Origin: Liolophura sinensis | Taxonomy: Eukaryota; Mollusca; Polyplacophora; Chitonida; Chitonidae | Direction: 5' to 3' | Assembly (NCBI RefSeq): GCF_032854445.1 | Contig: NC_088295.1 | Location: 9,657,385-9,721,384 of the forward strand | Length of the DNA: 64,000 nucleotides | Shown here: piece after piece, positions 1,400 through 32,200 of the stretch | How the letters are laid out: each line of letters starts with the position of its first letter | How positions within the stretch are numbered: position 1 is the first letter of the stretch | Notes under the pieces: generated by a model | Seen by the model: only the letters and a program-made list of their open reading frames with translations | What the model was told of the DNA's origin: nothing | Databases searched by the model: none | Program-made: the position numbers and the translations under genes

Positions 1400-1575
1400 T
1401 CAGAGCATGGGCTTGTCAATCACAGCTACGCCAGCATAGCTTCGCCCCGTCATCATGCTCGAAGGTAACATGTTCCATACATTACTTTTGGGGTCATAGC
1501 ACTCGAATGAACCCAGGTTTGAAGAGCCATCATCTCCGCCTACCACATACAACAGGCCACCATTAGAGAGGACAC
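1400..1575 (-). CDS. KLHL exon 12: kelch repeat 6 and stop
   Basis: Encodes [39 protein letters not shown] and [16 protein letters not shown], then TGA at 1400-1402. Human KLHL3 ends [14 protein letters not shown], so the C-terminus is complete. The last repeat supplies the strand that closes the propeller. Confidence 0.97.
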
Positions 1576-4500
1576 CTGCAAAACAAGAGAAAAGCAATAT
1601 CAGAGACAGAATGGAACACTGATTTCTTCATTTGTTTAATACTATACTCTAGCGCTTTTTACATACATGACTGCAGTCAGTAGTATGGGTGAAGGCAACT
1701 TGATTGCCCCTGAAAACCACTGACCTTTGGCATGTTACTGACAGACTTACATACTGAAGTACAGTCATGCACACACCATATTTCTGGTAGACAAGTGGTC
1801 ATCAACGGCCTGCAGAAACAACCATATAGGCGTCACTGATGGCTTATTGCCACCAAGGCCACTGATGCAGTGAGATAAGAGAATTTACAAATTCCCTGTC
1901 CAATGTCAGTGTCCTGTCTGCACCTCATGTCCTAGCAACTGAGAGATCAATGAAACAGAAAGTTAAAGACCAATGTTAAAATGTATCTGAAGACACCCTG
2001 AGAAGCTCATGTGTTGTGCATTTTACTATACTTTATAATCTGCTTCAGCTATAATTTGTTTCAGACATCTGTAATTTACCTGCATTCCGTCTACACAGGT
2101 GCATCTCTGCCACCTGTGACCAACAGTTTGTTTCTGGGTTATAAAGCTCCACACTCTTCCTCACCAAGGGTCCATCATGCCCTCCCACTGCGTACAGCAA
2201 CCCGTCAATCACCCCAACACCTGCACAGATAACCACAGCAAGACAGGATCAAGATAAGGACAGTAGAAAAACAGGTATACTCTTCTGTTTTTCTTCAAAG
2301 AAAAGCTGCCATGAAATCAAGTTTTCTGACTTTTAATGATTACACAAAGATTGGTCGATTTGTGAAATGGTAATACTCAGGCCTGTTAAATATTGAAGGA
2401 CATCCTCGAGCTAGTCACCAACTAAGACGTATCAACATTTTACATGATGCCTTGAATTCTGTGGTTACCTTCGGGCCAGGTATGAACAAGATCTTACCTG
2501 CACCACTCCTCCGGCATGTCATCTCTGCCACAGGTGTCCACATGTCAGTCACAGGGTTATAACACTCCACAGAGCTGAGGCACTGACGTGAGGCACCATC
2601 ATACCCCCCGACTGCATACAGCAGACCTTAACACATAGATACACATGTCAGTCACAGGGTTATAATACTCCACATAGCTGAGGCACTGACGTTAGGCACC
2701 ATCATACCCCCCTACTGTGTACAGCAGACCTTAACACACAGATACACGTCAGTCACAGGGTTAAAATACTCCACATAGCTGAGGCACCGACATGAGGCAC
2801 TATCATACCCCCCTACTGTGTACAGCAGACCTTAACACACAGATACACATGTCAGTCACAGGGTTATAATACTCCACATAGCTGAGGCACTGACGTTAGG
2901 CACCATCATACCCCCCTACTGTGTACAGCAGACCTTAACACACAGATACACATGTCAGTCACAGGGTTATAATACTCCACATAGCTGAGGCACTGACGTT
3001 AGGCACCATCATACCCCCCTACTGTGTACAGCAGACCTTAACACACAGATACACATGTCAGTCACAGGGTTAAAATACTCCACATAGCTGAGGCACCGAC
3101 ATGAGGCACTATCATACCCCCCTACTGTGTACAGCAGACCTTAACACACATATACACATACATGTCAGTCACAGGGTTATAATACTCCACAGAGCTGAGG
3201 CACTGACATGAGGCACCATCATACCCCCCGACTGCATACAGCAGACCTTAACACATAGATACACACGTCAGTCACAGAGTTATAATACTCCACATAGCTG
3301 AGGCACTGAAATTAGGCACCATCATACCCCCCTACTGTGTACAGCAGACCTTAACACACAGATACACATGTCAGTCACAGGGTCAAAATACTCCACAGAA
3401 CTGAGGCACCGATGTGAGGCACCATCATACCCCCCTACTGTGTACAGCAGACCTTAACACATAGATACACATGTCAGTCACAGGGTTATAATACTCTACA
3501 CAGGTGAGGCACTGACGTTAGGCACCATCATACCCCCCTACTACGTACAGCAGACCTTAACACATAGATACACATGTCAGTCACAGGGTTAAAATACTCC
3601 ACATAGCTGAGGCACCGACTTGAGGCACCATCATACCCCCCTACTACGTACAGCAGACCTTAACACATAGATACACATGTCAGTCACAGGGTTAAAATAC
3701 TCCACATAGCTGAGGCACCGACATGAGGCACTATCATACCCCCCTACTGTGTACAGCAGACTTTAACACATAGATACACATGTCAGTCACAGGGTTATAA
3801 TACTCCACAGAGCTGAGGCACCGACGTTAGGCACCATCATAACCCCCCTACTACGTACAGCAGACCTTAACACATAGATACACATGTCAGTCACAGGGTT
3901 AAAATACTCCACATAGCTGAGGCACCGACATGAGGCACTATCATACCCCCCTACTGTGTACAGCAGACTTTAACACATAGATACACATGTCAGTCACAGG
4001 GTTATAATACTCCACAGAGCTGAGGCACCGACGTTAGGCACCATCATAACCCCCCTACTACGTACAGCAGACCTTAACACATAGATACACATGTCAGTCA
4101 CAGGGTTAAAATACTCCACATAGCTGAGGCACCGACGTGAGGCACCATCATACCCCGCTACTGTGTACAGCAGACTTTAACACATAGATACACATGTCAG
4201 TCACAGGGTTATAATACTCCACAGAGCTGAGGCACTGACGTTAGGCACCATCATAACCCCCCTACTACGTACAGCAGACCTTAACACATAGATACACATA
4301 TGTCAATCACAGGGTTAAAATACTCCACATAGCTGAGGCACCGACGTGAGGCACCATCATACCCCCCTACTGCATACAGCAGACCGTAACACACAGATAC
4401 ACATGTGAGGCACCGACATGAGGCACTATCATACCCCCCTACTGTGTACAGCAGACCTTAACACACAGATACACATGTCAGTCACTGGGTTACAATACTC

Positions 4501-7500
4501 CACATAGCTGAGGCACTGACGTTAGGCACCATCATACCCCCCGACTGCATACAGCAGACCTTAACACATAGATACACATGTCAGTCACAGGGTCAAAATA
4601 CTCCACAGAACTGAGGCACCGATGTGAGGCACCATCATACCCCCCTACTGTGTACAGCAGACCTTAACACATAGATACACATGTCAGTCACAGGGTTATA
4701 ATACTCCACAGAGCTGAGGCACTGACGTGAGGCACCATCATACCCCCCGACTGCATACAGCAGACCTTAACACATAGATACACATGTCAGTCACAGGGTT
4801 ATAATACTCCACAGAGCTGAGGCACTGACATGAGGCACCATCATACCCCCCTACTGTGTACAGCAGACTTTAACACATAGATACACGTCAGTCACAGGGT
4901 TATAATACTCCACATAGCTGAGGCACTGACATGAGGCACCATCATACCCCCCTACTGTGTACAGCAGACCTTAACACACAGATACACATGTCAGTCACAG
5001 GGTTAAAATACTCCACATAGCTGAGGCACTGACATGAGGCACCATCATACCCCCCTACTGTGTACAGCAGACTTTAACACATAGATACACGTCAGTCACA
5101 GGGTTAAAATACTCCACATAGCTGAGGCACTGACATGAGGCACCATCATACCCCCCTACTGTGTACAGCAGACTTTAACACATAGATACACGTCAGTCAC
5201 AGGGTTAAAATACTCCACATAGCTGAGGCACTGACGTGAGGCACCATCATACCCCCCTATTGTGTACAGCAGACCTTAACACATAGATACACGTCATTCA
5301 CAGGGTTAAAATACTCCACATAGCTGAGGCACTGACGTGAGGCACCATCATACCCCCCTACTGTGTACAGCAGACCTTAACACATAGATACACATCATTC
5401 ACAGGGTTATAATACTCCACAGAGCTGAGGCACTGACGTGAGGCACCATCATACCCCCCTACTGTGTACAGCAGACCTTAACACACAGATACACACGTCA
5501 GTCACAGGGTTAAAATACTCCACATAGCTGAGGCACTGACGTGAGGCACCATCATACCCCCCTACTGTGTACAGCAGACCTTAACACATAGATACACGTC
5601 ATTCACAGGGTTAAAATACTCCACATAGCTGAGGCACTGACGTGAGGCACCATCATACCCCCCTACTGTGTACAGCAGACTTTAACACATAGATACACGT
5701 CAGTCACAGGGTTAAAATACTCCACAGAGCTGAGGCACCGACGTTAGGCACCATCATACCCCCCTACTGTGTACAGCAGACTTTAACACATAGATACACG
5801 TCATTCACAGGGTTATAATACTCCACATAGCTGAGGCACTGACGTGAGGCACCATCATACCCCCCTACTGTGTACAGCAGACTTTAACACATAGATACAC
5901 ATGTCAGTCACAGGGTTAAAATACTCCACATAGCTGAGGCACTGACGTGAGGCACCATCATACCCCCCTACTGTGTACAGCAGACTTTAACACATAGATA
6001 CACATCATTCACAGGGTTAAAATACTCCACATAGCTGAGGCACTGACGTGAGGCACCATCATACCCCCCTACTGTGTACAGCAGACTTTAACACATAGAT
6101 ACACGTCAGTCACAGGGTTAAAATACTCCACAGAGCTGAGGCACCGACGTTAGGCACCATCATACCCCCCTACTGTGTACAGCAGACTTTAACACATAGA
6201 TACACGTCATTCACAGGGTTATAATACTCCACATAGCTGAGGCACTGACGTGAGGCACCATCATAACCCCCCTACTACGTACAGCAGACCTTAACACACA
6301 GATACACATGTCAGTCACAGGGTTATAATACTCCACATAGCTGAGGCACTGACGTGAGGCACCATCATACCCCCCTACTGTGTACAGCAGATCTTAACAC
6401 ATAGATACACATAATAAACAGGTTTACTTAAGAGGTCTTCTCAAAACAAACAAATCTTGTGAGGTAATGATCTGCTATAATTATGGTACTAAAACAATAG
6501 TATGTCATATTTGTGATAGACCTTTATTTAATGTGATAGCAATCACATCACAAAATGGATTGTGTTTTCAACAAAATTAATCTACTGAGGTTATATGACT
6601 CTTGGCTTTACCTCCCACCACTCCAACACCAACACTGCTACGACGAGTGCTCATGGACGCTATCATCCGCCATTCTCCATTCTTGATGTCGAAATATTCT
6701 GCACTGTCCAGACCTGGGAAATAAGCACACAATTAAGCACATAAAAAGGCTAAATGAAGAATCGATGTCACAAGAGCTAACACTACTATCAGGCTTCTTG
6801 AAATACTCTGGCTGGATTCTTTTCCTTGGTATTTGACGCCAAACTTGATTACACTTTCATGCCAGCTAGCATAAAGCCTTGTCAATCTTAAGTGTATGTA
6901 ACTACCATGGCAGCCACGACTGTAGGCATCACATTGCCAAGGCAGTTATGTGATTGTTAAGTTAAGAGGGCAACCTACAAGTGTTTCCAGTTATTTCATA
7001 CAGCCCAATTCCGTCTTTATATGAAAGCTACATGTAGGCATAGTCAATGCAACTAACCTGTCCCCAAAATGCGTGATGCAGAAAGTATCTAGTGTTAAAT
7101 CCGTAACATTTTTGTGACACACACAAGTTGATTTATTTATTTGATTGGAGGTTTACGCCGTACTCAAGAATATTTCACTTCAGCTAGTATTAAAGAGGGG
7201 GAAACTAGGCAGAGCTTGGGGGAAACTGTGACAATAAGAACAGTTGCTGTACTTCTAACCAGTTGTTTAGTGTTAGCTATTCTCTAGCAAAGTCTTAGAT
7301 GAAGACATCTTACGAAATACACTTTTCATTCCGTTCCTATATATGTATGCTTGGGGAATTACATACTTAATTTTTCTGGAACGCAGCGACATGTCATTAG
7401 ATGTGTGTACACATACTGCGTCTCCTTGTAGCAGGACTGTCTTCAGTGGTGGGTTCTCCTGACACTGAAGCATCATGTCCAAGACAGCAGCCATGACACC

Positions 7501-10500
7501 CTACCCAGTCACATTATACTTACACCATGCCAACCAGTCCTGTTTCCTTGCTCTAACCTCTCTGTGCTAAATGCCGAGTGAGGCTGCAGCAAGAACCATT
7601 TGTAAGTCTTTGGTATGACCTGACCCAGGTTGAACCCCAGGTCTATCAACTTCAAGGCTGACACTTTAACCTTTAGGCCACCGAAGCGGGCCATTTAGCA
7701 ACAGAGATCTATTCTATACCCTATGCAGAGCAGCGTGTTAGGTCAGTAAATACATGTATGAGTAGTGTGTTAGGCTACTGACTAGGACTGCAGCAGGAAA
7801 CCAATCTACATGTACTTCAACAAACACTTGACAAACCCCTTAACAGAAAGGGCAGACAATCCTTTAAAACACTGAATCTAATATCTGATTAGTCCCAGTA
7901 CATGGAATTGGACGTTGAGAATAACTGGATACAAGATGATCATGGCTCTATTTAGAGACCCAGCCATTCGCTGAAGTTTTTAGCACAAATAAGAACTCCA
8001 CGTACCTCTAGCAAGGTACTTATTACAAAATTGAGTGTCGTGATGTGAAGGGGAGTTGTTAAGACGAGTATCTGACCAGCTAGAGATATGTGGATTACTT
8101 ATGCCATGTTTCTCGAAACTTGTGCAAATGGCTGGGTCTCTGACTGGAGGTCAAGGAGCCACAATTACGGCGATTCCAAATATATGTATTTCTCAACCTA
8201 ATAGTGCATCTGGACTAATACCTGACCTGGTGTAACCAGAGTGAAGGATAAGCAAAGTGGTAACATACCTGATGATCCATCAAATCCTCCCACGGCATAG
8301 ATCAGCCCATTTAGCACAGCCACACCCAGAGTGCTGCGCCTAGCTTCCATGCTGGGGCAGTTTGTCCAGCTGTCCTTGAGAGGGTCGTACATGTCCACTG
8401 TCCTCACCCTCAATGAGCCATTAAAGCCTCCCACAGCATACACCATACTGTTCACCATGGCTACACCTGTCAAACATAAAGCACATACATGTCACCATGA
8501 CAACACATAAAACACATACGTCAACATGGCCACATGTCACACATAAGGCATGTATATGTTACCATAGTCACTCCTGTCACACATAAAGTACCTATATGTT
8601 ACCATGGCCACACAAAAAGCACTCATATGTTACCACATGGCCATTCCTTTCAAACATAAAGCACCAAAATGTTACCACGGCCATTCCTGTCACATAAAGC
8701 ACATACATGTACATGTTACCATGGCCACACATGTCACACATCTAAAACACCTATACGTTACCATGGCCACACATGCCACACATAAAGCACAAACATGTAG
8801 GCAGGAGATAAGGATAAGGAGCAAGTTGACACAGAAGATCAAAACTCACCATTAGCTATTTTTGATTATGACTATGACTTGATAAATATACATGCTGTAT
8901 ACCAAAGAAAACACGTTCTATGTTACTCACAGTCGTAATATGACATTCTAAAACACACTATGAACCGTCTCTACTTACCACAGCGACACCTTCGTGATGG
9001 CATTTCTGCCAGCTGATACCACTTCTCCTCCTTGAAGTCGTAGCACTCAACACTACGTATAGCCTTCGGAGCCTGACCTCCTATCACCAGCATCACCTGA
9101 GACGTCAGAGCAGATGGTTATACATTCATGTAATGATAAACAACTTCATCTCTTTAGTTCTGATAACTTGAGCCAATACAGGATATACATTTGTCACTTG
9201 CTATTATCCATTATATATATTCATTCATTTGTGTTTACTGCAGTACTCAAGAATATTATACAGTGTAGCCTGGCTATGAGACACCTCGATATAGCTCGCA
9301 ATTGGATATAATGTGACCCAAATCTTGTTCCCTAAAAATCTGTGGTGTACTTTCATATGAGAATAGCTAAAACTGCGAAAGGATAAAGATTTTTCACCGA
9401 CAAATATGCGTAATTAATGCAGCATCATTTCCTACCGTTAGTGTGTGACCCATGTGTCATTTGATATTTTAGGCTTAATCTTCTGAATATTACGTGAGTA
9501 CAACCAAAAAAAATGGATTTTCTATGAATAATGGGGGAGGTTGTAGCTGGTTACATTTTCTTTGTGAGCGATTTTGATTCCAAACGTACATGTGGTGCAG
9601 TTGTTGTTGCAGCATTACTTCCTTGTGAGTGTGGCTTCGTCAGCAATGCTGAACACATGCTGCTCACTGTGACAGGCATACCACATAATGGGACTAATGT
9701 TTGCACACTTTCAGTAAATGCTGATAACTTTATTCAGATTAATGAATAGCTATAAAGAGAGGTGTGAAACTGCAGGGAGTGAGATTTGGCTTACGGCATG
9801 CTGACATGTCAGAGTTGAGATGAACTCACTCAAACGTTTCCTTCATTTAATACACTGATTTAGCATGGTATATATTAAAACACTGAACATTATTTTTTTG
9901 TGCGTGTGTGTTCAGTATCTGTAACACGGTCAGGTGATCGAGTTGACAGTTGCCTGCAGTAGGCCATTTTGAATCCGAGGCATCTACCAGACATGATTGT
10001 GGTGAACCAAGAAAATAGCTGAAATTTACTATCATAGCCCAAAAAAGCCGGGGTCCAGGGGCCGCCTAGGCCCCGGAAGCTAGAAAAATCTGCGGAAAAC
10101 AGGTAAATTAATCGAAACTGAACAAAGAAAAAGCGGAATTCCTCTAAAAAGCGGAAAAAAATCATGTCTGATCTAAGTTCCAGGCGTTACTTCTGATATG
10201 AGCAGACATGGGCGAAATGGATACAAAATGCGTTGTAGCTTTTTTTTTAATTTGAAAATGAAGTGGATGGAACTACTTTACTTGAATTCAGCTTGTGGAA
10301 ATGCTTAACATGCACTGAGTTCTGCAGGTCAGTCCGTGCCTGTGATTACACGATACGAGGTTAGCTTTGTGGGATATGACTTCTGGAATGCTTGAATCCT
10401 TAGGAACCAAAAATCTCATGAGTTTATATTAAACTAACAATAATAAAGCATTTGCCAAAACACATTTTGCATTGATAAAACTTATAACACACACAGGAAC

Positions 10501-13500
10501 CTGTCTGCAAAGCAGCATGCTATAGCCAGGATACACTGTATTATATTTATATACTATCCAAAAAAAGAAACGCATAACCCGGTTTTTTGCAGAGGTGATG
10601 CAGTCTTTTCAATTATGCATAACTAAATAAGAATTGCTATTCTGCAAATATTTTTTTACACAGATTAAGGAAGGGTCCATATCTAGACAACAAGGCCATC
10701 AACTTGAGGTAAGACACTCACAATGAGTCTCCCACTTGAGTGGAATGTCAGTATCTGTTGTGACCACCACGGGCACAAATAACAGTTTTGACACGCCTTG
10801 TCATGGACTGGATGAGACGCTGGACAGAGGCCTGGGGAATGTTCTGCCACTCCTCCTGCAAACATGCAACTTGCTCTTGAAGCGATTGGGGTTGAGGCTG
10901 ACGTTGGCGTAGACGTCGATCAAGTTCATCCCACAGATGCTCCATTGGGTTAAGATCCGGGGAACGGGACGGCCAGGGTAGCACATTTACATAGTTTTCG
11001 GTGAGGAAGTCCCTTGTGACACGTGCCGTGTGCAGTCTGGCGTTGTCCTGCTGGAACAACTCCCGCTGAACGTCAATGACAGGTAAGCGGTGTGGCTGCA
11101 GGATGGTGTCTCGGTAGCGTACGGCCGTAAGATTTCCCTGAACGTGGACAAGATTTGTACGACCAGTATACGATATTGCTGCCCACATCATCACACTCCC
11201 TCCACCAAATCTGTCCACTTGGCGTACGCAGTTAGGGGCATAACGTTCGTGAGCATGTCTGTAAACCCGGTTTCTACCATTACGTCTCTGCAATAGGAAT
11301 CTGGACTCATCACTGAAGCAAATGCGTTGCCAGTTGCGTAGATTCCTTGCAGTCACGTTGTTACACCATCGGAGGCGATTGGCGCGATGGTGAGGACGCA
11401 GCACGATCCCAACATAGGGCCTCCTGGCTCTCAGTCCATGTTCCCCCAGCCTGTTCCGCACTGTCTGACCTGATATCCTCCTCAGTCCCGGTATGCTGGC
11501 TGCTGTGCTTTCAGCTGTAGCACAACGGTCACGCAAATGGAGGACCCTTATGTAGCGTTCTTGGGCTACTGTAGTGACACGTGGTCGACCTGAACGCCGA
11601 CGGTCATTTGTTGTCCCAGTATTGTTGTAGCGGGCAGCAAGCCGTGAAATCATGCTCTGGCTGAAGTGTAGACGCCTAGAAATGGACGACTGGGACTCTC
11701 CAGCTTGAAGTCTTCCAATGGCAATATTTCTTGTGACAGTGTCAAGACGTGGCATGTTGAATCAGCTTGAAAACACCACTTGAAAGACGCCGATTTCCGG
11801 CCCGAAGTTGCGGTTTTATAGTCACACACCGCATGCTTTCCGTGCGTAAGTTCGGCGTGTAAGACTGCACGTGATGCAGTGTGGTGCTGTATTTTTTACT
11901 TCTTCCACAAACGGCCCCCAAACTCAACATGTACTCATGTAAGAAATGTTTTGAGGAATAAAATGTGTGCTAACTGTGACTATTAACAATATTAAAACAC
12001 ATTTTGCTCATGAAATGAAGACAAAATGTATTTATTTCATTTTAAAATAAAACAAAACACCTATGCGTTTCTTTTTTTGGATAGTATATCACAGCACTCA
12101 CATGCCCTAGGCTATGTTTACTTTCAAATGTGATCTTTTATACTTAACTCATTACTGAAGTTAGATTTGATCTTCAATGCTAATTTTCTTTTCTTTTCAT
12201 GAAGGTGAAAGACAACAATTAGTATTACAATAGGAAGCCTAACAGATGGTCAAAATTTCAGCACAGCGAACTGTTTAGAAGTTAGGACCAAGTTTCACTT
12301 ATGTCTAAGACTGCTTCATGGTCTGGGGATCACAGAAAGTAACATTTTGACAAAGAAAAAAGGTACCTTTCCTTCATATAGGACAGGGTAGGGATAGCTA
12401 TGTACAAGAATGTATGATGAATTACAAACCTTTGGAAGGCCTATTGGTGTCCTCGGGTTTGTCCTAGGCGTCTTGTACACCATCTTCTGTTCAGGTTTGA
12501 GCAGGTGGTACTTCATGGCCTCTATCAGGTAGTCCTTACAGTTACTGTTTTCTTTGATCAGGGGCTCTGCCTCTACTCTCTGTACTAAATACTCCTGCGG
12601 CATCAGAGGTAAGCGCACATGCTCCACCAGCTGGGCAACATTCTCCCCCCTATTGGGCAGGTCGTGTTGTAACCAGGTAATCACAGCCTCAAACACCTGA
12701 ACAAATGTAATTAGCTTGTCATTCTGGAAATACATTAAGCTGTTCATGGCCAAGCTGACGAGGATAAACAAAACTTTACATATACATGGTAAAAAAATTT
12801 TATCAGTCACAAAATTCACAAAAGAGCAATTTTTTTTATATCTTTTCATATTTTTATTAAGGGGTATATAATCATATACACATAAATCTTAACAGTTCTA
12901 AACAGAAGAAAACGTATACTGAAGAAAAAGTATCACATTATTTAAACAGCACTTCTCACAAATTATGGGATGTTGACAACATGCTCAGAAATAAACAGGA
13001 ATTATCTTGTAATGTTTTCTCTTTGTGACAAAATCTTTGTGAATCCAAATACCAGGCATCCCAGGAGTACTTTTCTTCAAATGCCAAGTCATACTCAAAT
13101 TTAATATAACTATCATTCTGACAGAAAATGAAGACATAAAACTAAACACTAAGTTTAAATCTTGATACACAGTTGAAAAATTTTGTCAACGTCAGATATC
13201 ACCCACCTGCTCCTCTGAGGTTACGGTCAACCTATCACTGGAGATGAGTTTACACACATGAAGGGCAGGCAAGGAGAGAAACTCATCATAATGTACCACC
13301 TCACTGTAACAAGACACATGTTCATGATGCCTCATATAAACCACTGTCTTAAAATAACCAGGTACCTGATGAGCGAATTTATAAGATGAAGATGAAGCCA
13401 AACCAGCAGAAAATGTATACAAATCCACAACATAGAATTTTTGTGAAAATTTATGTTATAACAGATATTTAAATAAATATAAGTTCTACAAACAGGCAGC

Positions 13501-16125
13501 AAAATTTGGCCTGTCGGCGAAACCCAGAAATCGGTTACGTCTTTTCCGCCTCGCCTAACAGATCATTCGGTTACGCCACGTATGTTTATCAACCCGATCG
13601 GTTACGCTAATTGTTTACGTGGTTTATGTTTCAGGCATCATTATGGATCATTAATAAAAGTATTCAGCTTAATGTTATGTTTGTTTTTCTTTTCTATATC
13701 TAGCAGCTCATACCGTAAGGTTGGTGAACAAAAGAAAGAGAAATTTTACACTCACACGGTGTTTCAACGTTGTGTGTTGCCTGGTTGGTACTTGACTCCT
13801 GTGGCACATTTTTACGTGAAATTCCGTTATACAGGCTTATATGTTTGCAATATGCCCAGTCGAACATTAAGTACTTCCAGTAAGTGTCATTACGGTATTG
13901 GGGAGCGAGTTTGGTATCCCTGATTACTGATAATTAACGCAGTTTCCAACGCACGTGGTGTGAGTCTTACCACAGTGATATATATATATATATATATACT
14001 CGCTACAGGGCCGGGAGAGACCTTGACGTCACAGGCCAATGCGTCACAGGCCTGTGCTCTAAATCAGAACAAAGCCGGTGAGGTCCCGTGAGGATCCATC
14101 AATCTGTACGGTAGACTCGACTAATTTGGGCTCGAGTAGCAGTTAAACTACATGTACATGAAAAGGTAACCTTGTTTTATTTACTTGCGTGATCGTGAAA
14201 AGATAAGTCAAAATAAATAATTTGAGTATTATCTCAAAGCCTGTAAAGCATATATGAATGATTACATTTCCATGTGACCAGCACAGGCAGCTGGCTGTGG
14301 CTGAAATCGATGTTTCTATTTTTAGACGCGTTGCCATACTGGCCGCGTTGTGATTATGAAAGCTGTTCAGTCCAGTTTATCTGTAGTTACCTAATGCACA
14401 CTGACTCTAAGGGCGTTCTCGTTGGACAGTTGGCCTAACCGATTTTCCGGTTAACCAAATTGAACCGCACGTAACCGTTGCGCGACCGACGGTTTCGTTC
14501 GCGCCAAATTTCGCTGCCTGTACAAATATATCAATAGACATAATAAACTTACTCTTTGCTTCAAGACAAATAAGGAAGCCAGTCGCAAATACTACTAGTT
14601 AATCTGTTTAAAGTTTTATGGTGGCCAGCAATTCACTCTAACCGAAACAGATTCCACAAAACACTAAGACATTTGCCCCTGTTTAATCAGGCCACATGAC
14701 AGCAAGTGGGAAGGTTCAACAACTGCAGTAAACACCTGAAATGTTGTTCTGTATAGGTCTGGGAGTAAGAGAGCAGCTCTGTACAGGCATGAAGGTCAGC
14801 AAAGGCCCGGATACCAAGGCAATTAGACGGGTGCAGCTGAGACTGTAGGAAATCACAGCAGGCATCACGCACTTCTGTAAGCTGTAACAAGTTGGCCGCT
14901 GGGAGTAGCATCTGCATCGACAAAGGTAGGCACATTTAGAGGTATCACATGATTACAAAGAAAAGATTTAGAAGTGAAACATATACAGCTTAAAACCATT
15001 TGAACACTTGATCAGTACTGGATATTAAAACCAATAGACTACATGTACACACTGTACAAGTAAAACACTTTTTGTTTAAATATTGACAACTATAGTAGAC
15101 ATCTTAGTACTGTTTTCATACCTGTGCATTTTCCTCTGTGACCTGTTTTTCATCTCAGTACCATATACCTGTATATTATCCGCTGATCCCTTATTTCATT
15201 ACAGTACCCCATACCTGTACCTTATCCTCTGTAACCCATTTTTCGTCCCAGCGCCCCACACCTCCACACTATCCTCTGTGATCCATTATTCCCCATACCT
15301 ATATATTATCCTTGCTGGCTTGTTTTTTATCCTTGTACATTATTCTGCATGAACAATTTTTCATCCCAGTACCCCATACCTGTATATTATCCTTCTTGAC
15401 CTATACATGTATTTCATAGCAGTACCATATACCTGTATACTATTCTTCATGATCCATATTTCATCCCAGTACCCCTTACCTGTACATTATCCTCTGTGAC
15501 ACGTATTTCTGATGTGTAAACGAAGTCTATCAGCTGTACTAGAGCATTAGACTCTATCTCCTGGAGGGTGATTCGGTCAGCTTTAGCCTCCGTCATCTCC
15601 CCAGTGAACATGGCGTAGAAATACTGACTACAGGCAGAGAGCACAGCCCTGTGGGCGGGGATCTCGGTATCGTCCACCACAAGGGTCACGTCACACAGCA
15701 GGTTGTGCCTGACAAGATACACCATTTACAACATCAATTATCACCATTATCAGTATAAATTCAGGTTGATGAGAACTAGAATAAAATGATTCAAGGTGTA
15801 ACATGAGCAGATAAATAGACCATTGTAAAACTGTACCATGTGCATTAAAAACAAGCTTTTGTTTTCTTTTCTCTATCCATTACTTATCTTTACCCAGTTT
15901 CAAGAATTCTAAACATTATCATTTACATTTCAGGTCAGTAATTTGAAAATCATTATTTATTCCCTGCAACATTCGTTATCTAATAAATGCTGGCAGCACT
16001 TACTTCCTCATCATATTCAGCGTTTCAAAAGCCTTACAGCTGTGCTGTGGATGTTTGTAAGCTGGACGCTCTCGGCCTCCCAACATTTTAGGCCTTGCTT
16101 CCATGGCAATGGATTGTAGGACCAT
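1400..16125 (-). CDS. KLHL2/3-like: KLHL2/KLHL3-type BTB-BACK-Kelch protein (whole coding span, 11 coding exons)
   Basis: The joined exons 16004-16125, 15480-15708, 14736-14911, 13207-13303, 12430-12696, 8979-9096, 8269-8466, 6612-6713, 2498-2626, 2080-2220 and 1400-1575 give 584 codons plus TGA. All joints are GT-AG and in phase. Human KLHL3 (587 aa) and KLHL2 (593 aa) are nearly the same length. Domains: BTB about residues 30-140 ([22 protein letters not shown]), BACK about 145-250 ([20 protein letters not shown]), the linker [13 protein letters not shown], then six kelch repeats with YAVGG/DG blades ([26 protein letters not shown]). The family acts as a Cullin-3 RING ligase adaptor: BTB/BACK binds CUL3 and the propeller binds substrate, WNK kinases for vertebrate KLHL2/3. 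An RRSS motif in kelch repeat 3 matches the PKC-site region of KLHL3. KLHL2 and KLHL3 cannot be separated here; the gene may be the pre-duplication orthologue. Confidence 0.96.
2080..2220 (-). CDS. KLHL exon 11: kelch repeat 5
   Basis: Encodes [40 protein letters not shown] and LCRRNA, matching KLHL2/3 repeat 5 ([15 protein letters not shown]). Phase 1 on both sides. Confidence 0.97.
2498..2626 (-). CDS. KLHL exon 10: kelch repeat 4 (source of the adjacent array)
   Basis: Encodes [20 protein letters not shown] then [22 protein letters not shown]. The first 86 bases or so, with the preceding intron tail ending in ttaag, are repeated about 37 times upstream in the gene. Only this copy continues into the rest of the exon (WTPVAEM...) and a donor (gtaaga), so it is the functional one. 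Its acceptor has a purine-rich, weak tract. Confidence 0.95.
2627..6412 (-). repeat. Roughly 103 bp tandem array amplified from kelch exon 10
   Basis: About 37 head-to-tail units follow the functional exon copy. Most are 103 bp; some are 101 bp through loss of two bases near the unit junction, and one near 4377-4449 is about 72 bp. On the minus strand each unit reads: intron tail ending ttaag, then GTCTGCTGTA (exon start), GGGGGGTATGATGGTGCCTC, and on to ACTGACATGTG, where the exon's WTPV codons are replaced by the next unit's intron tail. Some units (near 3190-3240 and 4735-4765) differ from the exon by only one or two bases over the shared part. Reading past a unit junction shifts frame to a TGA, so no array unit can replace the real exon without truncating the protein. 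There is no ORF above 60 codons in the array. Confidence 0.95.
6612..6713 (-). CDS. KLHL exon 9: kelch repeat 3 end
   Basis: Encodes [20 protein letters not shown] and [13 protein letters not shown]. The RRSS motif aligns with the KLHL3 segment holding phosphorylated Ser433. Acceptor is tttcccag, donor is gtaaag. Confidence 0.96.
7128..7227 (-). repeat. SINE 3' fragment (family A)
   Basis: The minus strand carries the family A tail: a diverged copy of the CCCGGTTTCC block, then TATTCTTGAGTACGGCGTAAA and a (AAAT)n end. It is diverged and lacks the tRNA-like head. Confidence 0.75.
7385..7692 (-). repeat. tRNA-like SINE (family B)
   Basis: The minus strand starts GGCCCGCTTCGGTGGCCTAA, with a box A-like stretch and a box B-like GGGTTCAACCTGG about 50 bases later, as in tRNA-derived SINEs. 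The body follows (GTAAGTCTTTGG in reverse, then GACTGGGTAGGGTGTCATGG). It differs in sequence from family A. The far boundary is approximate. The 61 and 73 codon ORFs inside it are incidental. Confidence 0.55.
8269..8466 (-). CDS. KLHL exon 8: kelch repeat 2 and start of 3
   Basis: Encodes [33 protein letters not shown], then [20 protein letters not shown] and FDGSS. The first 14 bases and the acceptor of this exon are the proximal unit of a degenerate tandem repeat that runs to about 8798. Confidence 0.97.
8457..8798 (-). repeat. Degenerate roughly 40 bp tandem array over the exon 8 splice acceptor
   Basis: About nine diverged units of 30-44 bp in the pattern ACCATGGCCACACctgtca then cataaagcacatacatgtt on the plus strand. 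The proximal unit is the KLHL exon 8 start itself (minus strand GTGTAGCCATGGT preceded by tgacag). Several distal units keep the gacag acceptor-like end. The array lies wholly in the intron except for 14 exon bases. Confidence 0.8.
8799..8978. other. KLHL intron remainder between exons 7 and 8
   Basis: Unique AT-rich intron between the degenerate array and the exon 7 donor; nothing else recognised. Confidence 0.6.
8979..9096 (-). CDS. KLHL exon 7: kelch repeat 1
   Basis: Encodes [20 protein letters not shown] followed by [19 protein letters not shown]. It is near identical to KLHL3 repeat 1 ([17 protein letters not shown]). It starts in phase 0 after the LPK linker exon and ends in phase 1 with donor gtaagt. 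Confidence 0.96.
9097..10549. other. KLHL intron 6, part downstream of the Tc1 element
   Basis: Intron sequence. A short SINE-tail-like stretch (tactcaagaatatt, about 9240-9262) is visible. The 91-codon minus ORF at 9890-10165 and the 72-codon plus ORF at 9531-9749 show no recognisable domain and I treat them as chance. Confidence 0.55.
10550..12088 (-). mobile_element. Tc1-like DNA transposon, apparently full length
   Basis: The ends are perfect 27 bp inverted repeats, 10550-10576 and 12062-12088, starting tatactatccaaaaaaagaa. The outermost bases read TATA on both sides, consistent with insertion at TA. The 1.54 kb length and a single uninterrupted transposase match Tc1/mariner. It lies in KLHL intron 6 in the same orientation as the gene. 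Confidence 0.95.
10748..11755 (-). CDS. Tc1-family transposase (DD34E), intact
   Basis: An intact 335-codon ORF from [20 protein letters not shown] to the TGA-free end GGHNRY and stop. The N-terminal half holds the paired HTH DNA-binding region ([18 protein letters not shown], then the GRPR-like SGRPRVTT linker). The catalytic triad is visible: Asp in CFSDESRF, Asp in [10 protein letters not shown], and Glu in [13 protein letters not shown] with 34 residues between the second Asp and Glu. Length is typical of Tc1 (about 340). The enzyme cuts and pastes the element by binding its inverted repeats. With no stops or frameshifts, the copy is recent and could be active. It has no functional tie to the host gene. 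Confidence 0.95.
   Translation of the reverse strand: MPRLDTVTRNIAIGRLQAGESQSSISRRLHFSQSMISRLAARYNNTGTTNDRRRSGRPRVTTVAQERYIRVLHLRDRCATAESTAASIPGLRRISGQTVRNRLGEHGLRARRPYVGIVLRPHHRANRLRWCNNVTARNLRNWQRICFSDESRFLLQRRNGRNRVYRHAHERYAPNCVRQVDRFGGGSVMMWAAISYTGRTNLVHVQGNLTAVRYRDTILQPHRLPVIDVQRELFQQDNARLHTARVTRDFLTENYVNVLPWPSRSPDLNPMEHLWDELDRRLRQRQPQPQSLQEQVACLQEEWQNIPQASVQRLIQSMTRRVKTVICARGGHNRY
12430..12696 (-). CDS. KLHL exon 6: end of BACK and linker to the propeller
   Basis: Encodes 89 residues starting [20 protein letters not shown], through [20 protein letters not shown] and [14 protein letters not shown], to [13 protein letters not shown]. Open sequence continues upstream of 12696 but is separated by a good acceptor (catttgttcag); that upstream part is intron. 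The donor is the less common GTTTGT. Confidence 0.96.
12697..13206. other. KLHL intron between exons 5 and 6
   Basis: AT-rich intron; open sequence upstream of the exon 6 acceptor is not conserved with KLHL proteins. Nothing else seen. Confidence 0.6.
13207..13303 (-). CDS. KLHL exon 5: BACK domain
   Basis: Encodes [20 protein letters not shown] then [12 protein letters not shown], matching the EEFLSL...LISSDKLTVSSEE block of KLHL3. Acceptor is gttacag, donor is gtgggt, leaving phase 0. Confidence 0.95.
13493..14520. mobile_element. Non-autonomous DNA transposon with inverted termini
   Basis: The left end CAGGCAGCAAAATTTGGC and the reverse complement of the right end CAGGCAGCGAAATTTGGC match at 17 of 18 positions; weaker similarity continues through a GAAACC stretch to CGGTTACG. 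Both sides are flanked by TACAAA (13487-13492 and 14521-14526), a 6 bp target-site duplication. Several CGGTTACG motifs near the left end (about 13520, 13568 and 13598) resemble transposase-binding subterminal repeats. The interior (1.03 kb) has a (TA)10 run at about 13978 and no transposase; the 113-codon ORF at 13582-13923 has no recognisable motif. The superfamily is not assigned. Confidence 0.75.
14736..14911 (-). CDS. KLHL exon 4: BTB end and BACK start
   Basis: Encodes [20 protein letters not shown], then [20 protein letters not shown] and a TEQHF end. This block is highly characteristic of KLHL2/3. It ends in phase 2 (AG|gtgttt), completed by the T of the next exon to give Ser. Confidence 0.97.
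14912..15479. other. KLHL intron between exons 3 and 4
   Basis: Pyrimidine-rich intron with an irregular repeat of the theme catcccagtaccccatacctgt about every 50-70 bases from roughly 15120 to 15480. The last iteration (agtaccccttacctgtaca) overlaps the exon 3 donor on the minus strand. Confidence 0.55.
15480..15708 (-). CDS. KLHL exon 3: BTB domain core
   Basis: Encodes 76 residues beginning [20 protein letters not shown] and ending VTEDNVQ. It carries the BTB signatures ([31 protein letters not shown]). Acceptor is cttgtcag, donor is gtaagg. It aligns almost without gaps to KLHL2/3. Confidence 0.97.
15709..16003. other. KLHL intron between exons 2 and 3
   Basis: A 295 bp AT-rich intron bounded by matched GT-AG sites; nothing further seen. 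Confidence 0.7.
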
Positions 16126-17219: not shown

Positions 17220-20200
17220 GTAAGTATATTTTTGTGATATAGTTACGGTTTCAGTCAGATTGCTTTTGATACAGGTCGATATGCAGTGGTATTGTTCCGG
17301 CGAGCCGGTGGTCGGCCGGTCGGTCGTTGTTGTAGGCGGTTGGAGGCACACAAGTCGAGGCTTGTCAATGCGTCGATCAGAGCTGTCACTTCTCCAAGTC
17401 CCACTGCCACACTACAGGCAGGACTTGTATTAGAGGCAAGGTGATTGCTTGTAGCTGGGTTGAAGGTATGCATGTTTATCTAGATAAGGATTGAGAAATA
17501 TTGAATTAGGAAGTTAAATGTTTTGCCTACATCATGATGTAACTTCATTTAGGCCTAATCACGATTTATTACTTATTTTTGCTGTACATGCAGGGCTGTA
17601 GTGGGTAGTTCGAATAATGTGTAGGTCCTGCTTGTACCATGGAATGGTGTATGTTACCTGTGCTGGCCATAGTAGTTTTCGATTAAGGGGACTTTTAGCT
17701 CGAAACATTTTTGGCTTGTATCCAAAGTAACCCTACATGTACCACCACATAACTAATTTAATTAGCACATCAGGGAGTAAGGGACCTATTTTCTGCACAC
17801 ATTAAGTACTCTAGCTAACTGACAAATACAAGTATTTACAAACATTGATCATATTTTAAGCCTGGTACACCCAGGTGGATGATGCCAGTGGCAGGTGGTT
17901 GAGTCCGCCGGGACTGGTGACTCGAGTGTTCTCATGTGCACACCGGCGGTGATCGGAAAAGTTGGACACGTTTTAACTTTACCTGTTCCGACTGCCAGTG
18001 GCCATGTTCTCATACTGCTGTCATGTACCGCTGGTGGGGTACTGCCAGTTGTATGAGAACCAGTATAGTTTTCAGTTGATCCTAAAGCAAACAGAGACAC
18101 AAACATGTGACAACTTAAGATTCTAGGAATATATATAGACGTAATAAATGGTACCACTGAGTATAGTTTAAATTAAGAGTGTTCAATGTCATTGTTGAAG
18201 ATCACATCTGCAGTTCATGGGTGTTCCATGTCAGTATATATTTGCATGCAGTTCATTTAGCCATAATTTAAAAACACTTTGTTGGGCCTAACTCAACCCA
18301 ATCAGAAAACATAGGAGTGGTTTTTGAGGGCATTAGTTAATTGTGATAGCCGCTTATGACAAATACAGAGATTTTAAAGAAACTGACATGCAGAGAAAAA
18401 TTTAAGAAAACAACTTTTATCACAACCTGAATAAAAACCTTTAAAATTGAGCATTTTTTGGAGGGTTGGTAAAATTAGGCTTAATGGTGACATTGGTGTT
18501 GTTCAATATTAATGTTCACATCTGCAGTTCATGGGTGTTCATTGTCAGTGTTTGCATCTGCAATTCATGGGTGCTCCATGTGCATATTCACACCTGTAGT
18601 TCATGGGTGTTCCATGTCAGTGTTCACGTCTGCAGTTTTTGGGTGTTGCATGCCAGTGTTTACATCTGAGGTTCACAGATCTTCCGTGTCAGTTTCCACA
18701 TCCACAGTTCATGGGTGTTCCATGTTAGTGTTCACATCTGCAGTTCATGCATGCTCCATCAGTGTTCACATCAGCAGTTCATGAGTGATCCATCTCAGTG
18801 TTCACATCTGCAGTTCATGGGTGTTCCATCTCAGTGTTCACATCTCCGGTTCATGGGTGTTCCATCTCAGTGTTCACATCTGCAGTTCATGGATGTTCCA
18901 TCTCAGTGTTCACATCTTCAGTTCATGGGTGTTCCATCTCAATGTTCACATCTGCAGTTCATGGGTATTCCATCTCGGTGTTCACATCTACAGTTCATGG
19001 GTGTTCCATCTCAGTGTTCACATCTCCAGTTCATGGGTGTTTCATCTCGGTGTTCACATCTACAGTTCATGGGTATTCCATCTCAGTGTTCACATTTTCA
19101 GTTCATGGGTGTTCCATGTTAGTGTTCACATCTGTGATTCATGGGTGTTCCATGTTAGTGTTCACATCTGCAGTTCATGGGTGTTCCATGTTAGTGCTCA
19201 TATCTGTAGTCACTAGTTTGTGAAAGGTATGCACTGTTTAAGTGGCATAGGCTATCTTTAAATTGTGTGCAGAGCAGCAAACCTGTGATACACATTCAGT
19301 AGTTATGTTGGAATGTGTCCAAAGTCAAACATCTAGGTAGACTTAGACCTGTTTGTAGACTTCAGTGTTTAAGGGAGCTTTGGATTACTCTACTGGAGCC
19401 TGTTGAATTTGAGGCCAATGGCAAACAAGCCATTTTGAATTTTGTATACTTAGAACTTTGTGAATGTGTAGCAGTATTTCTTCAGCCTCATGTGTCTAAT
19501 CTGTATGAGAACAAGACACAAGGCTTCCAACTTTTGGAAGTTGCAATGGTAGTACTGTCCTCATGGTGGACATCTTGGATTTTTGCAACCAGCAACATGT
19601 GGATTATCACCTGTTTTTCCCCGGCCTCTGGCTGTTTTCCACCATAATGCTGGTCACCATCATAAATGAAATGTTCTTGAGTATAGCATAAAACTCCAAT
19701 GAAATAAATAAATAAATAACAATTGTGCACAGAATTACTGGCACTTAGTACTACCTAACTGCAACAGGACTACCATCCTTTTGGTTGTAATCTTGAGCTT
19801 TTTTCTAAGTCCTTCTTGATGTGTTTGTCTTCTTCAGGCTTTCCTGTGAGTGGCTTTTAGATTAATATTGGTCCAAATAAAATTTTGATCGGTAATAAAT
19901 TTAATTTGGTGAGTGTCTTAGACTTTAGGAAAAAGCAGTGACATGAATGTATATACCGGGACTGATTAAATGTGTGTGATTTTCTCACTCTTCTATTGAG
20001 CAATTGTCTTGCAGAATTTTTGATTGAGAAGAATGTTCATATGGTACCATTGGAGCCATCTCATGTTTTACTTGATTAATGTCTACCTTACTTCATTAAT
20101 TTGTCCACAAATGATATAACTACAAAGTGCTACATGTATGTGGAAGTGTTAGGGAAAACATGAGTGCTTGTTCAAGCATAGCTGTTTATTTATTGTAATT

Positions 20201-26200: not shown

Positions 26201-29200
26201 AGCCGAGTTACCTGTAAGTATGGTGTCAAGTAAAGATATTAAGTGTGAGATTCAGCATTGATGTAATAAAGAGTAACATTATACGATTCTTTCTCAGAAA
26301 GAAGTGTTGATAAAAGAACCATCAGAAATGGGAAGAAATTGATTCTGAAGTGGTGTTGTAAACAACTGCCATCAGGAGTCTGGAACCCGCAGAAAACTGT
26401 GACAAACAAGTGAGTGCATGTGAGGGAAGCTGTCATTATTTGTGGTGGTTTATCTGTTGTTAACATCATGCTACTGTTCCTCACTCACTCACTGAACAGA
26501 CACAGTTGACATCTGTGATTGGTCACACAGTTTGCATTGTTTTGTTTTTACAATAATTGGTTAATGGTTTATCACTGTGTGATGACCAATTAGTATTTCG
26601 CTGTCTTTGAAAGTTTTAAAGAATGTAGATAATTGGAAGAATTGATAAATCACTGACTTCTGATTACCAGTATAGCACATTGCACACATAGGTAACATGT
26701 ACATGCAAAACAGAATGACTGAAAAAAGTTAAGGCGACATGTCTGCCAAATTTGTGTATAATTGGGCAAGAAAACACAGGCAATGTGTAATAGTCAGTCA
26801 AAAATTAAAGCTGATTTGTTTGCTTTTGTCTCATGCTGTGACACAACTTTTCTTCAGGATTTTGTTCTGATTTCAGCCTTTGTAGTCATGAGAACTTTTC
26901 GAAGCTTCTGCAGCAAGTTTGTGGCAGTCCAGTGAAGAGCACTACAGAGGTAGGAGATATGTTACTTAGTTTCCAGGCACATGTTACTATTGGTTCAGAA
27001 ACTGTCATGTTCACAATTTTGCTGTGATAAAATTTGCAGATGTATGTTCTAGACGAAAGTCTTGATCATTGTGGGACATTTTTGTCAGTAGGGTAGAAGA
27101 TATAGTACAGGTCTTCAAATTTATTTGTTCTGAATGTAATTTATAACCTCAGGAACACTCAATTTTTCTGTATAGTTATTTATCTAATCATTGGCTTTGC
27201 GGAAAAGCTTATAGCGTATTGAAGAATGGTGCATTCATAAATCTCTCATAATTCAAGCTGCATTTCCATATGTAACCAATATATACCGTGGATTCCTAAT
27301 GGCGAAGGTATTGATTGCTGCGATATGTGTGTGCAGAGGGACTTGTGAAACAGGAACCTGCCAAAAATAAATGATAAGTGTGTAATAAATTCATTACTTT
27401 TGTCTGTCAGGATAAAGAAGAACAGATTCTGAGTCTGCTGTCTCAAGTGGAATCGAAATACAAAGTCAAAGGGGAGATAATCAAGTAAGTATGTGAAGCT
27501 CATAACATTTCATAATTAATTGAGTATTTATGTTGGAGAAGTTCATGGTTTAAATTAATAATTGTGTAGTGTATACCACATGATTATCTCCGATGTTCTG
27601 TGTTGCAGACCTAAGGAGTTACTAGATGGTACAATAGAGGACCATGACCTGTTGATATACATTGCTCTGCTGCGTTGGAGGGTAAGCCCAATTTTACTCT
27701 AATGTCAGTCTTATAGCTATTTTTTAAATTTATTTTATTTATTTATTTGATTGGTGTTATTTTTTTTAACTGATCATGCTTTATTTGATTTATTCAAATG
27801 TTACTTATGTTTAGGATTTCATACCAAAGCGGTTAATTAAATATTCAATTCAGAATAGTGATATCATAAAGATGACATAATGTGCAGTGGAGGATTTCAA
27901 TGCTGTTGTTGTAGAAACATTTGTCTGATGTCCTGTTTGACACATTTCCTTGATTAGCAGAGTGTTATTCATCCATATTGGCAGTACATGTATATAATAA
28001 TTTATATGTTTATCAGATAGATAACATCTGCATGGCCATTCTTATACAGTATGTGCAAAAGATAAGAGACACCAGGAAGTAATATTTTATGTTTTGTACA
28101 GATAGGAGAGACACAGGATTCAGAGAGCTCGTCGGAAGAAAATAGCACAAGGACAAGCGATGCTCTGCAAGATAACTCGGTAATAAGTAACTCAGTAATG
28201 TACAGATTACATTTTGTTGTACATGAGCTTATTCTCCAATCAGACGGAGGTACTAAGCATTGTTATTGGCATGACGTGACCATTAAATCTCGGTTTATTT
28301 TTATCCGGACTGAGAATTAGTTGTATGTTAACATGCACACAATTGTACTGGCATGGCTGTTCTGGATAACTGAGATTTGCATATCAGTATTCAAATCAAC
28401 CCCACACTGGTTCAGCATCAGTTTTACATCAGGAGTTTAGTTCCTAGTTAGATGCCGTAGTTTACTTCGGGCTCTGTTTGGTTTCCATTTCTTTTCATCT
28501 GACTGCTGCCGTATTGAAATGTTTTCAGCTGTAAAACCTGATAAAGTACATGATGAGCTCTATAAAAGATAACTCTATAAAACTGTTCTACTGGACAATG
28601 TATATTATTTACTGACGTTGGGGTGACAGCCTATCACCTTGAACAGAGTAAGGTGTTAAACAAAAAGAATTCCTGTTTATACTAAAACAATTTGCCACCA
28701 ATTCAGGATGTGTCAGGTCTGGTGAATTCCCATTTTTGTATAAAAAGGAATTCTTTAACACTTACTCTGTTGAAGTCGATAGGTTGTCGCCTCAGTAAAT
28801 AATATACATTGTCCAGTAGAACAGTTTTATAATGTTATCTTTTATAGCATATTAACCTGGATGTCTGAAAATCTACATTCCTATATATGTGATGAGTAGA
28901 TTCCAATGTTGTGTTAAAATAGAAAATTTGTTATTTAAACATCTATGTCACTGTACTGGTTTTCTCAATTGTTATTGTCAACACATTATTGTTTTCTCCT
29001 TAGTAACTTTTGGAAATTGTTGTGTTTTGTCAGAGTTTTCATCCGAGTGATCTAGGAAGAAGAATCTACCCCATGTCCACAGAAGACAACCAGTCTGGTG
29101 TGCCACTGTCGGTTATGCTTAAAAGTTACACTAATGGACAAGATAATAACCACAGTTACATGAACAAAATGTCTGATAAGAAATTTGTCACTTTCTCTGG

Positions 29201-32200
29201 TGAGAATGATAGTCTGCTTGAGAAAGGAAAAAACTGTTCAGCAGGAAGTCTGAGGCTTTCGAGGCCTAACAGTGCACCTACATCAAGATTTTCAGGTTCA
29301 GAAAGCAACACTTCTGGAAAAAGTGGCGCTGGCAGATTTGTCAGAAGTTTTTCTCCTTCACGGTATGCAAAAAGTTTCGAAATTCCAGCAGACAAAAAGA
29401 AGGAGTTGGAAAACAGAAGTGTGAAGATTAATGGGCAAGTATCTGGTGTCATTACTCCTCCGCTAGGGGGCCACACATCAGACACCAACGGCTTCTCAGA
29501 GGACACATCTGATTGGCTGTCTTCAGACATGGAGTACCAAGGAAACACTGATAAGGGAATCGTTAGAGATACTATCAATTTAAAGGTAAAAGAAGTAGTC
29601 ACAGGATGTGAAGCAAAGTCACTTGAGAGTGAAAAGTCCAGAGATAATCCAACATGCAGTGATAGCCATTGTAACCAAACCAGACTCCCTTCAACCAATA
29701 ATCCAGGAATTAAAGGATACCAAAATGGAGAGCCAAAGAATAATTTCAGAATCCCCGTAGGTGGCGTACCATTGTTTGGGATGACACCTGGCGCACCCAT
29801 GTCATCGGGGGTAAGTGGAGGAGTGCCGCTGTTCTTGTTACCAGGGCACGGCCCTGAAGTGGCACGACTACTGGAGGTTCTCCAACAACAACAACATACC
29901 CGTCAGACATTGGCTGACATGACAGACGGGGCAGTCTCATTGGGTGACACATCTCAATTTGAGACAAGTGAGAGGATCTCAGAAGGGGACTACACAGAGT
30001 ACTCAAACATTGGAGACGAAACTTCCTCATCCAGTGATTCTCGGGGAAAGCTTGAGAAAAACCATTCTCAGGATAGCTCTGAGGCAGAACTGAAACACCT
30101 TGGAGGTAGTCGGACTCCTAGTGAGGATCTAGCTCACTACATGTCTAGAGAATCTCGCTTAACAGATCCCCAGCGTCTGACAGATTCGGGGTGTGAATCT
30201 CAAAGTCGACCCGAGTCTAATCAGGGATGTAAGATCCAGGAAGATGAAAGTCTGAAGAAAATCCGACTGTTAAGAGAATCTTTGCAAAAACCTATGGAAG
30301 ATGATAAATTAAATGACAGGTCTTTCGGATCTGGGGATCTTCACATGGATGACTTAAGCTCAGGAAGAAGAGGGAATGTTTCTCCAGGAATGTCTTCCCT
30401 GGAAACAAAACCATTAGCACCTAAATGTAAACCAGAACAGCATTTTACAAGACGATTGATAGAAGATGTTGATGAATACAGAAGTAAGAACAACACATCT
30501 GGTGATGGCTACAGAGAAAGAGCAGAAAGATTCCCAAAAGGTGAAAAGCAGTTTGATAAAGACTTGGTTCATCTCTTGACTGATGAGATAAGAAACCTGA
30601 AATCAAAGGTTCTTACTTTGGAAAGATCTCAGGAAGGAACGGGGCCTGACAGTTTGGAGCAGCAGGAGCGAGGCAGGAACACAGAAAGGAGCCGTTTGCC
30701 AAAAGGCCCCTCAAAGAGATCCTCACGTGAGTCACCTCCAAGATCTCTGTTACGCTCTCCAGAACGTACTAGTCTCTCCAGCATAGAGGCCAGCAGGAGA
30801 GCTCGAGACACTGTCAGTGATCTCCTAGTTACTATGCAAAGTCCTTTAAGTCGGAAGACTGCTGAAGATGATATAGACCAAAGATCCCGCCGAGACTTGA
30901 GCAGACGGCCATTGTTATCATATCATGGGTTTGGGCGATCATTATCAGAAGATAGACTTCACAGGAATCAGTGTCGCCGAAGAGAAAATCATTCACCAGT
31001 TGATGATTGGAGGTCTAGAAGTTTCCATGGACACAGTGAACAAAGTCAGGATCCTGACTATTATCGTGAAGCCCGCTCCAGAAGTTTGCAAGATCTTTCG
31101 GGAAGGAAGATTCCCACGGGCATACTGATGGATGATGAGCTGATTGTAAAGCCTCCATCTGCAGCACCCATCAAATATGGTTACAGCAGCCCCATACAGA
31201 AAGTCTCCTCTGACATTTGGGGTGTGGACATAAAAGATTTGGACAGTCTAGAACCTGGAAGGCAGGAAAAATGGAAGCGGCTGACAGAGCCCAAGAAATT
31301 CATGACTGACAGTCAAATCATCGAGCTCAAGCAATGTCTGGCCAGCGCTACAATGGAGAATGAAATCCTGCATGCCAAGGTGGGCAATGCCAGTCATGAG
31401 ATAGGTGAAAAGATGACCAAAATGGCCCAAGTTTTAGAGGAAACCAAGCTGTCCTTGATTAAGACTCAGGCCGAGAATGAAGAGTTGCACACTCAGTTGA
31501 ACAGAGAAAGGTTAAGGTCAGACACTTTAGAGGTCAGGGTGGCTGACCTTGAAGGCTCTCTGACCAAGTCAAGGTCAGATTGTGAGCGTCTTGAACAGGA
31601 GCTTGAAGAGGCACGGACCCTGTTGGGTGGGACCGACGCTGATGGTATTCACAAGGTGGAACAGGAGAATTATCAGTTAAAGAGACAACTTAATGTCAGC
31701 AAACAAGAACAGAAGAAAACTAAAGAGGTAAGTGTCTGCAGTTGCTTTTCTTCACAAGCCTGTTGTAGGTGAAGGCCAAACTTTTAGATATCACAAATAA
31801 TAGTTTTGAAAAACATTCACTCCTTCCAGTGTAAAAATGTATCCTTATCCTTAAATCACAGTGTATGAAAGTATGTCACAGTAAAGTAAGGTAAAATCTA
31901 AAAGCCTTGCTTATTGACATGAACATATATAAACCACATTATTACAGTATAAACGAGCTGTGTATTGGTAGTATGTTAAGCTGTTTTTCTTTACACTCAA
32001 CCATCTAACAATTTGAAAAATTGTGCAATACATTTAGCGTTTTACCTTTACTTTGCCTTTGTTATTTGCAGGAGCTAGAGAGCATGAAAGTGAGCCGGGA
32101 CCGAGCCCATTCTGCTGTGAAGGATCTGCAGGTTAAGCTTGATGACACAAGAGAAGAGAACCACTTCCTAAGCCAAGAAATCAATGAGGTCAAAACACAG

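Follow-up and report, generated by a model that had tools for sequence, protein, structure and literature searches.

A human minisatellite with multiple splice donors, in the gene IFI6/G1P3, was reportedly described by Cuin and Porter in 1995; it shares repeated splice sites with the chiton array analyzed here, and its repeats are on the donor side. The closest described systems are the "mirages" of amphioxus, which, according to the accessible text of the two reports, are found in Adh3, the globin genes BflGb6 and BflGb9, troponin C, and PGBD5 (PMC3087553, PMC3902484). They are minisatellite-like copies of exon-intron boundaries at the 5′ or 3′ edges of exons, many of which contain AG or GT, while the host gene stays intact and splicing is apparently not disturbed. 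In human duplicated genes, internal tandem repeats at exon-intron boundaries are linked to novel introns and alternative splicing (PMC2812944, accessible text), and in the potato RdRp gene splice signals, with a putative branch site among them, were copied by a tandem duplication (PMC4974935, accessible text). The chiton locus resembles the former in its boundary repeats and the latter in its copied splice signals, but no new intron has formed within a former exon; instead, an existing intron was enlarged.

We consider it highly probable that the chiton array is a mirage, i.e. a minisatellite that arose by a single microhomology-mediated duplication followed by expansion, is most likely neutral, and belongs to a class of such arrays present in the genome. 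As in amphioxus, the tandem units run across an exon-intron boundary, many but not all of them keep the AG signal (24 of 37 in register), and the authentic exon is retained at one end of the array with its reading frame intact in the joined coding sequence. In contrast to the known cases, the host is a mollusc and not a cephalochordate, and the 37 units compare with 6 and 3 in two BflGb6 haplotypes in the accessible text of the amphioxus reports. Length instability between haplotypes or tissues and normal mRNA splicing despite the copies are traits of mirages; the chiton array is represented by one assembled sequence. No mollusc mirage was among the matches listed in a literature search that had most subscription journals outside its range, and the main text of a chiton genome comparison (PMC12005716) does not contain the terms "minisatellite" or "tandem repeat".

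The host gene lies on the minus strand at positions 1400..16004 of the window, i.e. the whole 64,000-nt stretch of Liolophura sinensis DNA that was analyzed. It was delineated by its joined coding sequence, structure alignment, and profile matches. Ten exons join in frame to an open coding sequence of 543 codons, in which BTB, BACK, and six kelch motifs are recognized, and the N-terminal exon probably ends at 16004. The closest solved structures by sequence are KLHL2 (2xn4, E 1.2e-143) and KLHL3 (4ch9, E 6.4e-136), in agreement with the KLHL2/3-type identity proposed in a first-pass annotation. The amplified exon, which had been numbered exon 10, is the ninth of 11 placeable exons (ten exons in addition to the probable N-terminal one up to 16004).

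The array itself (2627..6412, minus strand) was defined by unit parsing, Tandem Repeats Finder, and intron arithmetic. It consists of 37 partial acceptor-side units ahead of a complete exon that forms copy 38, confirming the suspected roughly 37-fold amplification of a kelch exon in place. This functional exon (2498..2626, minus strand) has 129 nt and encodes one kelch repeat, as seen from the open joined coding sequence and the alignment to KLHL2 (2xn4). Among the 38 copies it alone contains the rest of the exon and the donor CAG|GTAAGA, also as previously proposed. The preceding exon (6612..6713, minus strand, placed by the joined coding sequence) ends with the donor GGAG|GTAAAG. The intron between the two is 3,985 nt long, of which the array makes up 3,785 nt (~95%); the leftover native intron (6413..6611, minus strand) is ~3.8 kb away from the acceptor in use. 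The unit lengths are 101 to 105 bp for 35 of the 37 units, one unit has 72 bp and one 107 bp. Tandem Repeats Finder placed the array within 2539-6412; besides units of 103 and 101 bp, it detected the longer periods 305 and 406. A genome-wide search with one unit, which covered 609,464,459 bases in 632 contigs and skipped very common words, yielded 39 matches, all within 2539-6412 of the window. A dispersed repeat or mobile element is ruled out by the restriction of the matches of this unit to the one locus.

The first-pass annotation had suggested aligning all units with the exon, and this alignment yielded 37 copies of the exon start together with the intron end. The native intron ends with TTATTATGTGTATCTATGTGTTAAG, the exon reads GACTGACATGTGGACACC, and the units join GACTGACATGTG to TATCTATGTGTTAAG, so that the breakpoints have the five bases ATGTG in common. 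Because ATGTG is common to exon and intron at the join, a unit can be split in two ways, into exon bases 1-88 plus 15 intron bases or into exon bases 1-83 plus 20. The earlier description of about 86 exon and 17 intron bases therefore captured the architecture, but the exact figures are 83-88 and 15-20 nt per full unit. The shared join and the unit parsing also agree with the proposal that an exon-boundary duplication founded the array and that the true exon stands at its end. The founding event would have been one tandem duplication, mediated by microhomology at the 5-nt ATGTG, and later growth would have been ordinary array expansion by unequal exchange or slippage. Array growth would be under little selection, since the exon's own copy remains intact.

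The unit alignment points to a single origin. At one site the exon reads TGT (Cys) and every one of the 36 full-length units reads TAT, and human KLHL2 (2xn4, compared at the protein level) likewise has Cys at this site; it is therefore most likely that the array descends from one founder. The mean unit identity is 0.91 and five pairs of units are identical, which is compatible with local turnover as expected from unequal exchange or slippage. Compared with the exon, unit U17 has a single difference in 86 sites and U32 has two, the TAT/TGT site being different in all 36 full-length units. With regard to the exclusion of end copies from homogenization, a trait of mirages, the exon is set apart by this one site and yet is nearly identical to U17 and U32. 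Recent exchange between array units and the exon is possible, because U17 is so close to the exon.

For comparison, we examined 27 other loci of this genome (15 kelch, 12 myosin), hand-picked where profile matches clustered within 10 kb; with the window gene, the survey comprises 28 loci. The splice sites of the survey are predictions, called at fixed thresholds with a rough matrix, and the 80 sites of each set were called from 62 (kelch) and 53 (myosin) profile matches, leaving out sub-threshold sites. At least two same-strand copies within 2.5 kb that span the junction were required for an array, and copies within the profile match of another exon were left out. Arrays were found at three of 80 kelch sites, seven of 80 myosin sites, and three of 20 sites of the window gene, i.e. 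at 13 of 180 sites in total; two sites with a single copy are not counted among the 13. The least certain of the 13 is the donor CAT|GTGAGT of locus L024. In dinucleotide-preserving shuffles of the 27 survey loci, two copies occurred at none of 27,145 positions and one copy at 74 of 27,145. Among the copies listed, with up to five per site, those of acceptors are on the upstream side and those of donors on the downstream side. The 13 sites are distributed over eight of the 28 loci, and clustering by locus is not significant (permutation P 0.056).

Thus, 12 splice sites besides the main array have at least two copies of themselves, and two of these are in the same KLHL gene. The first (8557..8797, minus strand) comprises five diverged acceptor copies of exon 8466-8269, all five spanning the junction and four found with a longer query. 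The second (15148..15446, minus strand) comprises six donor copies of exon 15708-15480 with a unit of ~47 bp, six of them spanning and four found with a longer query. A BTB-kelch gene on contig C3 closely repeats the KLHL architecture: nine 94-bp units with up to 65 exon nt each lie upstream of the true exon, which comes last. A reading of the array as a new kind of structure or a singular event was not supported, given the 12 further sites in the genome sample and the mirages already described in amphioxus (PMC3087553, PMC3902484, accessible text).

Several further repeats were noted in the survey loci. An acceptor of a myosin locus (L019, C2, oriented position 2997) is repeated locally about 40 to 50 times at 32-bp intervals, a copy number above that of the main KLHL array, with 7-9 exon nt per copy among the rows listed. 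At another myosin locus (L023, C12), two donors of one gene (oriented positions 474 and 2984) have 7 and 17 copies, and at least two local copies are present at 742 of the 1,078 non-ORF positions of this locus. In a kelch locus (L006, C8), a minisatellite of ~32-33 bp with GTACAT repeats extends from oriented position 2292 onward, starting at the first intron base of a donor; copies spanning the donor into the exon were not found, and it was excluded from the count. A cluster beside an exon of L013 looked like an unrelated repeat and was rejected as a boundary array.

The values for splice sites were compared with those for non-ORF positions of the same loci. At the kelch loci, at least two copies were found at 3 of 80 sites versus 1,411 of 10,058 non-ORF positions (14%), a depletion with a binomial P of 0.005 that is qualified by the autocorrelation of the control positions. 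At the myosin loci, the values are 7 of 80 versus 2,684 of 11,447 (23%). Preferential targeting of splice sites is ruled out, as arrays are rarer there than at non-ORF positions. The occupancy rises from exon to intron in both survey sets: the kelch values are 1/80 at 50 nt inside the exon, 3/80 at the site, and 7/75 at 300 nt, and the respective myosin values are 1/80, 7/80, and 15/62. The 20 sites of the window gene show no clear rise (2/20 at 50 nt and 4/20 at 25 nt inside the exon, 3/20 at the site, 6/17 at 300 nt, and 3/17 at 400 nt). Three or more local copies are also present at 38 of 1,375 window positions outside of the main array. In the simplest interpretation, minisatellites form anywhere in non-coding sequence, and those that start in an exon edge survive when the copy at the exon is whole. 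In view of the depletion at sites and the rise into the intron, arrays at splice sites seem to be the tolerated margin of a general load of minisatellites in non-coding sequence, and no special function is indicated for them.

The units of the KLHL array have decayed in several respects. A stop in the exon-derived frame is present in 12 of 37 units, in four of these via a 1-nt insertion. The acceptor AG, which each unit had been said to possess, is in register in 24 units, has moved by one base in 12, and is absent from one (U21, 4384), so that it is lost or shifted in 13 of 37. This pattern appears neutral; coding or regulatory sequence under constraint would be expected to look different. 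If any of the 36 decoys that retain a usable AG is connected to the true donor, the reading frame ends prematurely, first at TAG in 18, at TGA in 11, and at TAA in 7 cases; the earlier prediction that upstream units read into a stop was correct, but TGA comes first in a minority. The open coding sequence of 543 codons was obtained with the last acceptor only, and we infer that this is the acceptor in use.

How might this acceptor be selected? Eight of the 37 decoys are identical to it from -30 to +10, so the acceptor sequence cannot single out the correct site. The best explanation from the sequence appears to be exon definition by the downstream donor: the last acceptor would be chosen as the only one followed by a strong donor, at a distance of 129 nt. 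The splice-site matrix used here is a rough one without training on this species. By its scores, the true donor ranks second among the nine donors of the gene, while the true acceptor has the lowest of ten scores (-1.0) and is not separated from most decoys (-2.3 to -1.0). On account of these acceptor scores, leaky splicing or skipping of the in-frame 129-nt exon is possible. Of the cryptic donors within the units, GGG|GTATGA is frequent (33 sites) and scores 1.2, versus 2.0 to 7.4 for the nine true donors; a single site, CAT|GTATGT, scores 2.3, above the two weakest true donors.

With 3,785 of the 3,985 intron nt taken up by the array, a long distance separates the native branch site from the acceptor in use; the array would have displaced this site upstream by ~3.8 kb. 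A branch-point-like CTGAC motif is present in the exon-derived sequence of unit 37 (2647..2651, minus strand); its A lies 22 nt upstream of exon base 1. The motif occurs before the true acceptor and 28 of the 37 decoys and is absent before nine. Exon-derived sequence probably provides the branch point for the acceptor in use, a guess from the motif: this acceptor would rely on the CTGAC (codons ACT GAC) 22 nt upstream. Most units would thus be self-contained acceptors.

The properties of the decoys could also be read as regulatory. Use of decoys would generate frame-broken transcripts that are subject to nonsense-mediated decay, and the length of the array would set the KLHL protein level. The premature stops from all 36 usable decoys, the weakness of the true acceptor by the rough matrix, and the exact match of eight decoys from -30 to +10 are compatible with this reading. 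However, the acceptor AG is lost or shifted in 13 of the 37 units, the cryptic unit donor GGG|GTATGA is weaker than all nine true donors, which disfavors unit-sized exons, and amphioxus mirages reportedly leave regular splicing undisturbed (PMC3087553, accessible text). We therefore regard such tuning as unlikely. As a poison exon, a unit would have to be included via its own donor, and the cryptic donors of the units are mostly weak, with one site at 2.3; poison-exon use and circular RNA, both suggested in the first-pass annotation, are hypothetical. Because the decay looks neutral and splice-site arrays are rarer than arrays in non-coding sequence, nothing observed favors a regulatory role.

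Still less probable is an assembly artefact, i.e. a collapsed or expanded array. Long repeats are prone to assembly errors, and one amphioxus mirage was aberrantly assembled in a reported case (PMC3087553, accessible text). Yet the units are not alike (mean identity 0.91), and for the published L. sinensis assembly the accessible text gives HiFi reads with an average length of 8,347 bp at 14x (PMC11068029), from which we estimate that about six to seven reads would be expected across the 3.9-kb array if the sequence stems from that assembly. The array is real and present upstream of the functional exon. A bank of alternative coding exons for mutually exclusive splicing can be dismissed with near certainty: every unit resembles the exon start, but the last 41-46 nt of the exon and the donor are missing from every unit, so that no copy is a full coding exon with a donor, and 12 of the 37 units have an in-frame stop.

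A neutral mirage would tie minisatellite turnover to intron growth, and the smaller arrays at other exon edges suggest that exon-edge arrays may be one route of intron growth in this genome. A broader proposal, which we put forward tentatively and rate at somewhat below even chances, is that the frequent birth of exon-edge minisatellites is a main route of intron growth, with dozens of near-identical acceptors silenced by exon definition alone and branch points supplied by duplicated codons; the frequency behind it is that of 13 of 180 called sites in 28 hand-picked loci. In the accessible literature, mirages are an amphioxus curiosity, and their presence at several percent of the sampled mollusc sites would generalize them. 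The arrays would offer natural experiments on competition among many near-identical 3′ splice sites that differ only in their position relative to a donor, and the KLHL array may be a natural test of how cells choose the correct splice site.

Other features of the window include a 921-codon open frame on the plus strand (29007-31772) with no Pfam match at E 0.001, which is possibly a large coding exon. Upstream of the KLHL gene, a 36-bp x 19.4 minisatellite with long plus-strand open frames (18513-19210) is located at no splice site recognized in the analysis. A KLHL intron contains, at 10748-11761 on the minus strand, an open 337-codon frame for a Tc1/mariner-type transposase (DDE_3, HTH_Tnp_Tc3_2).
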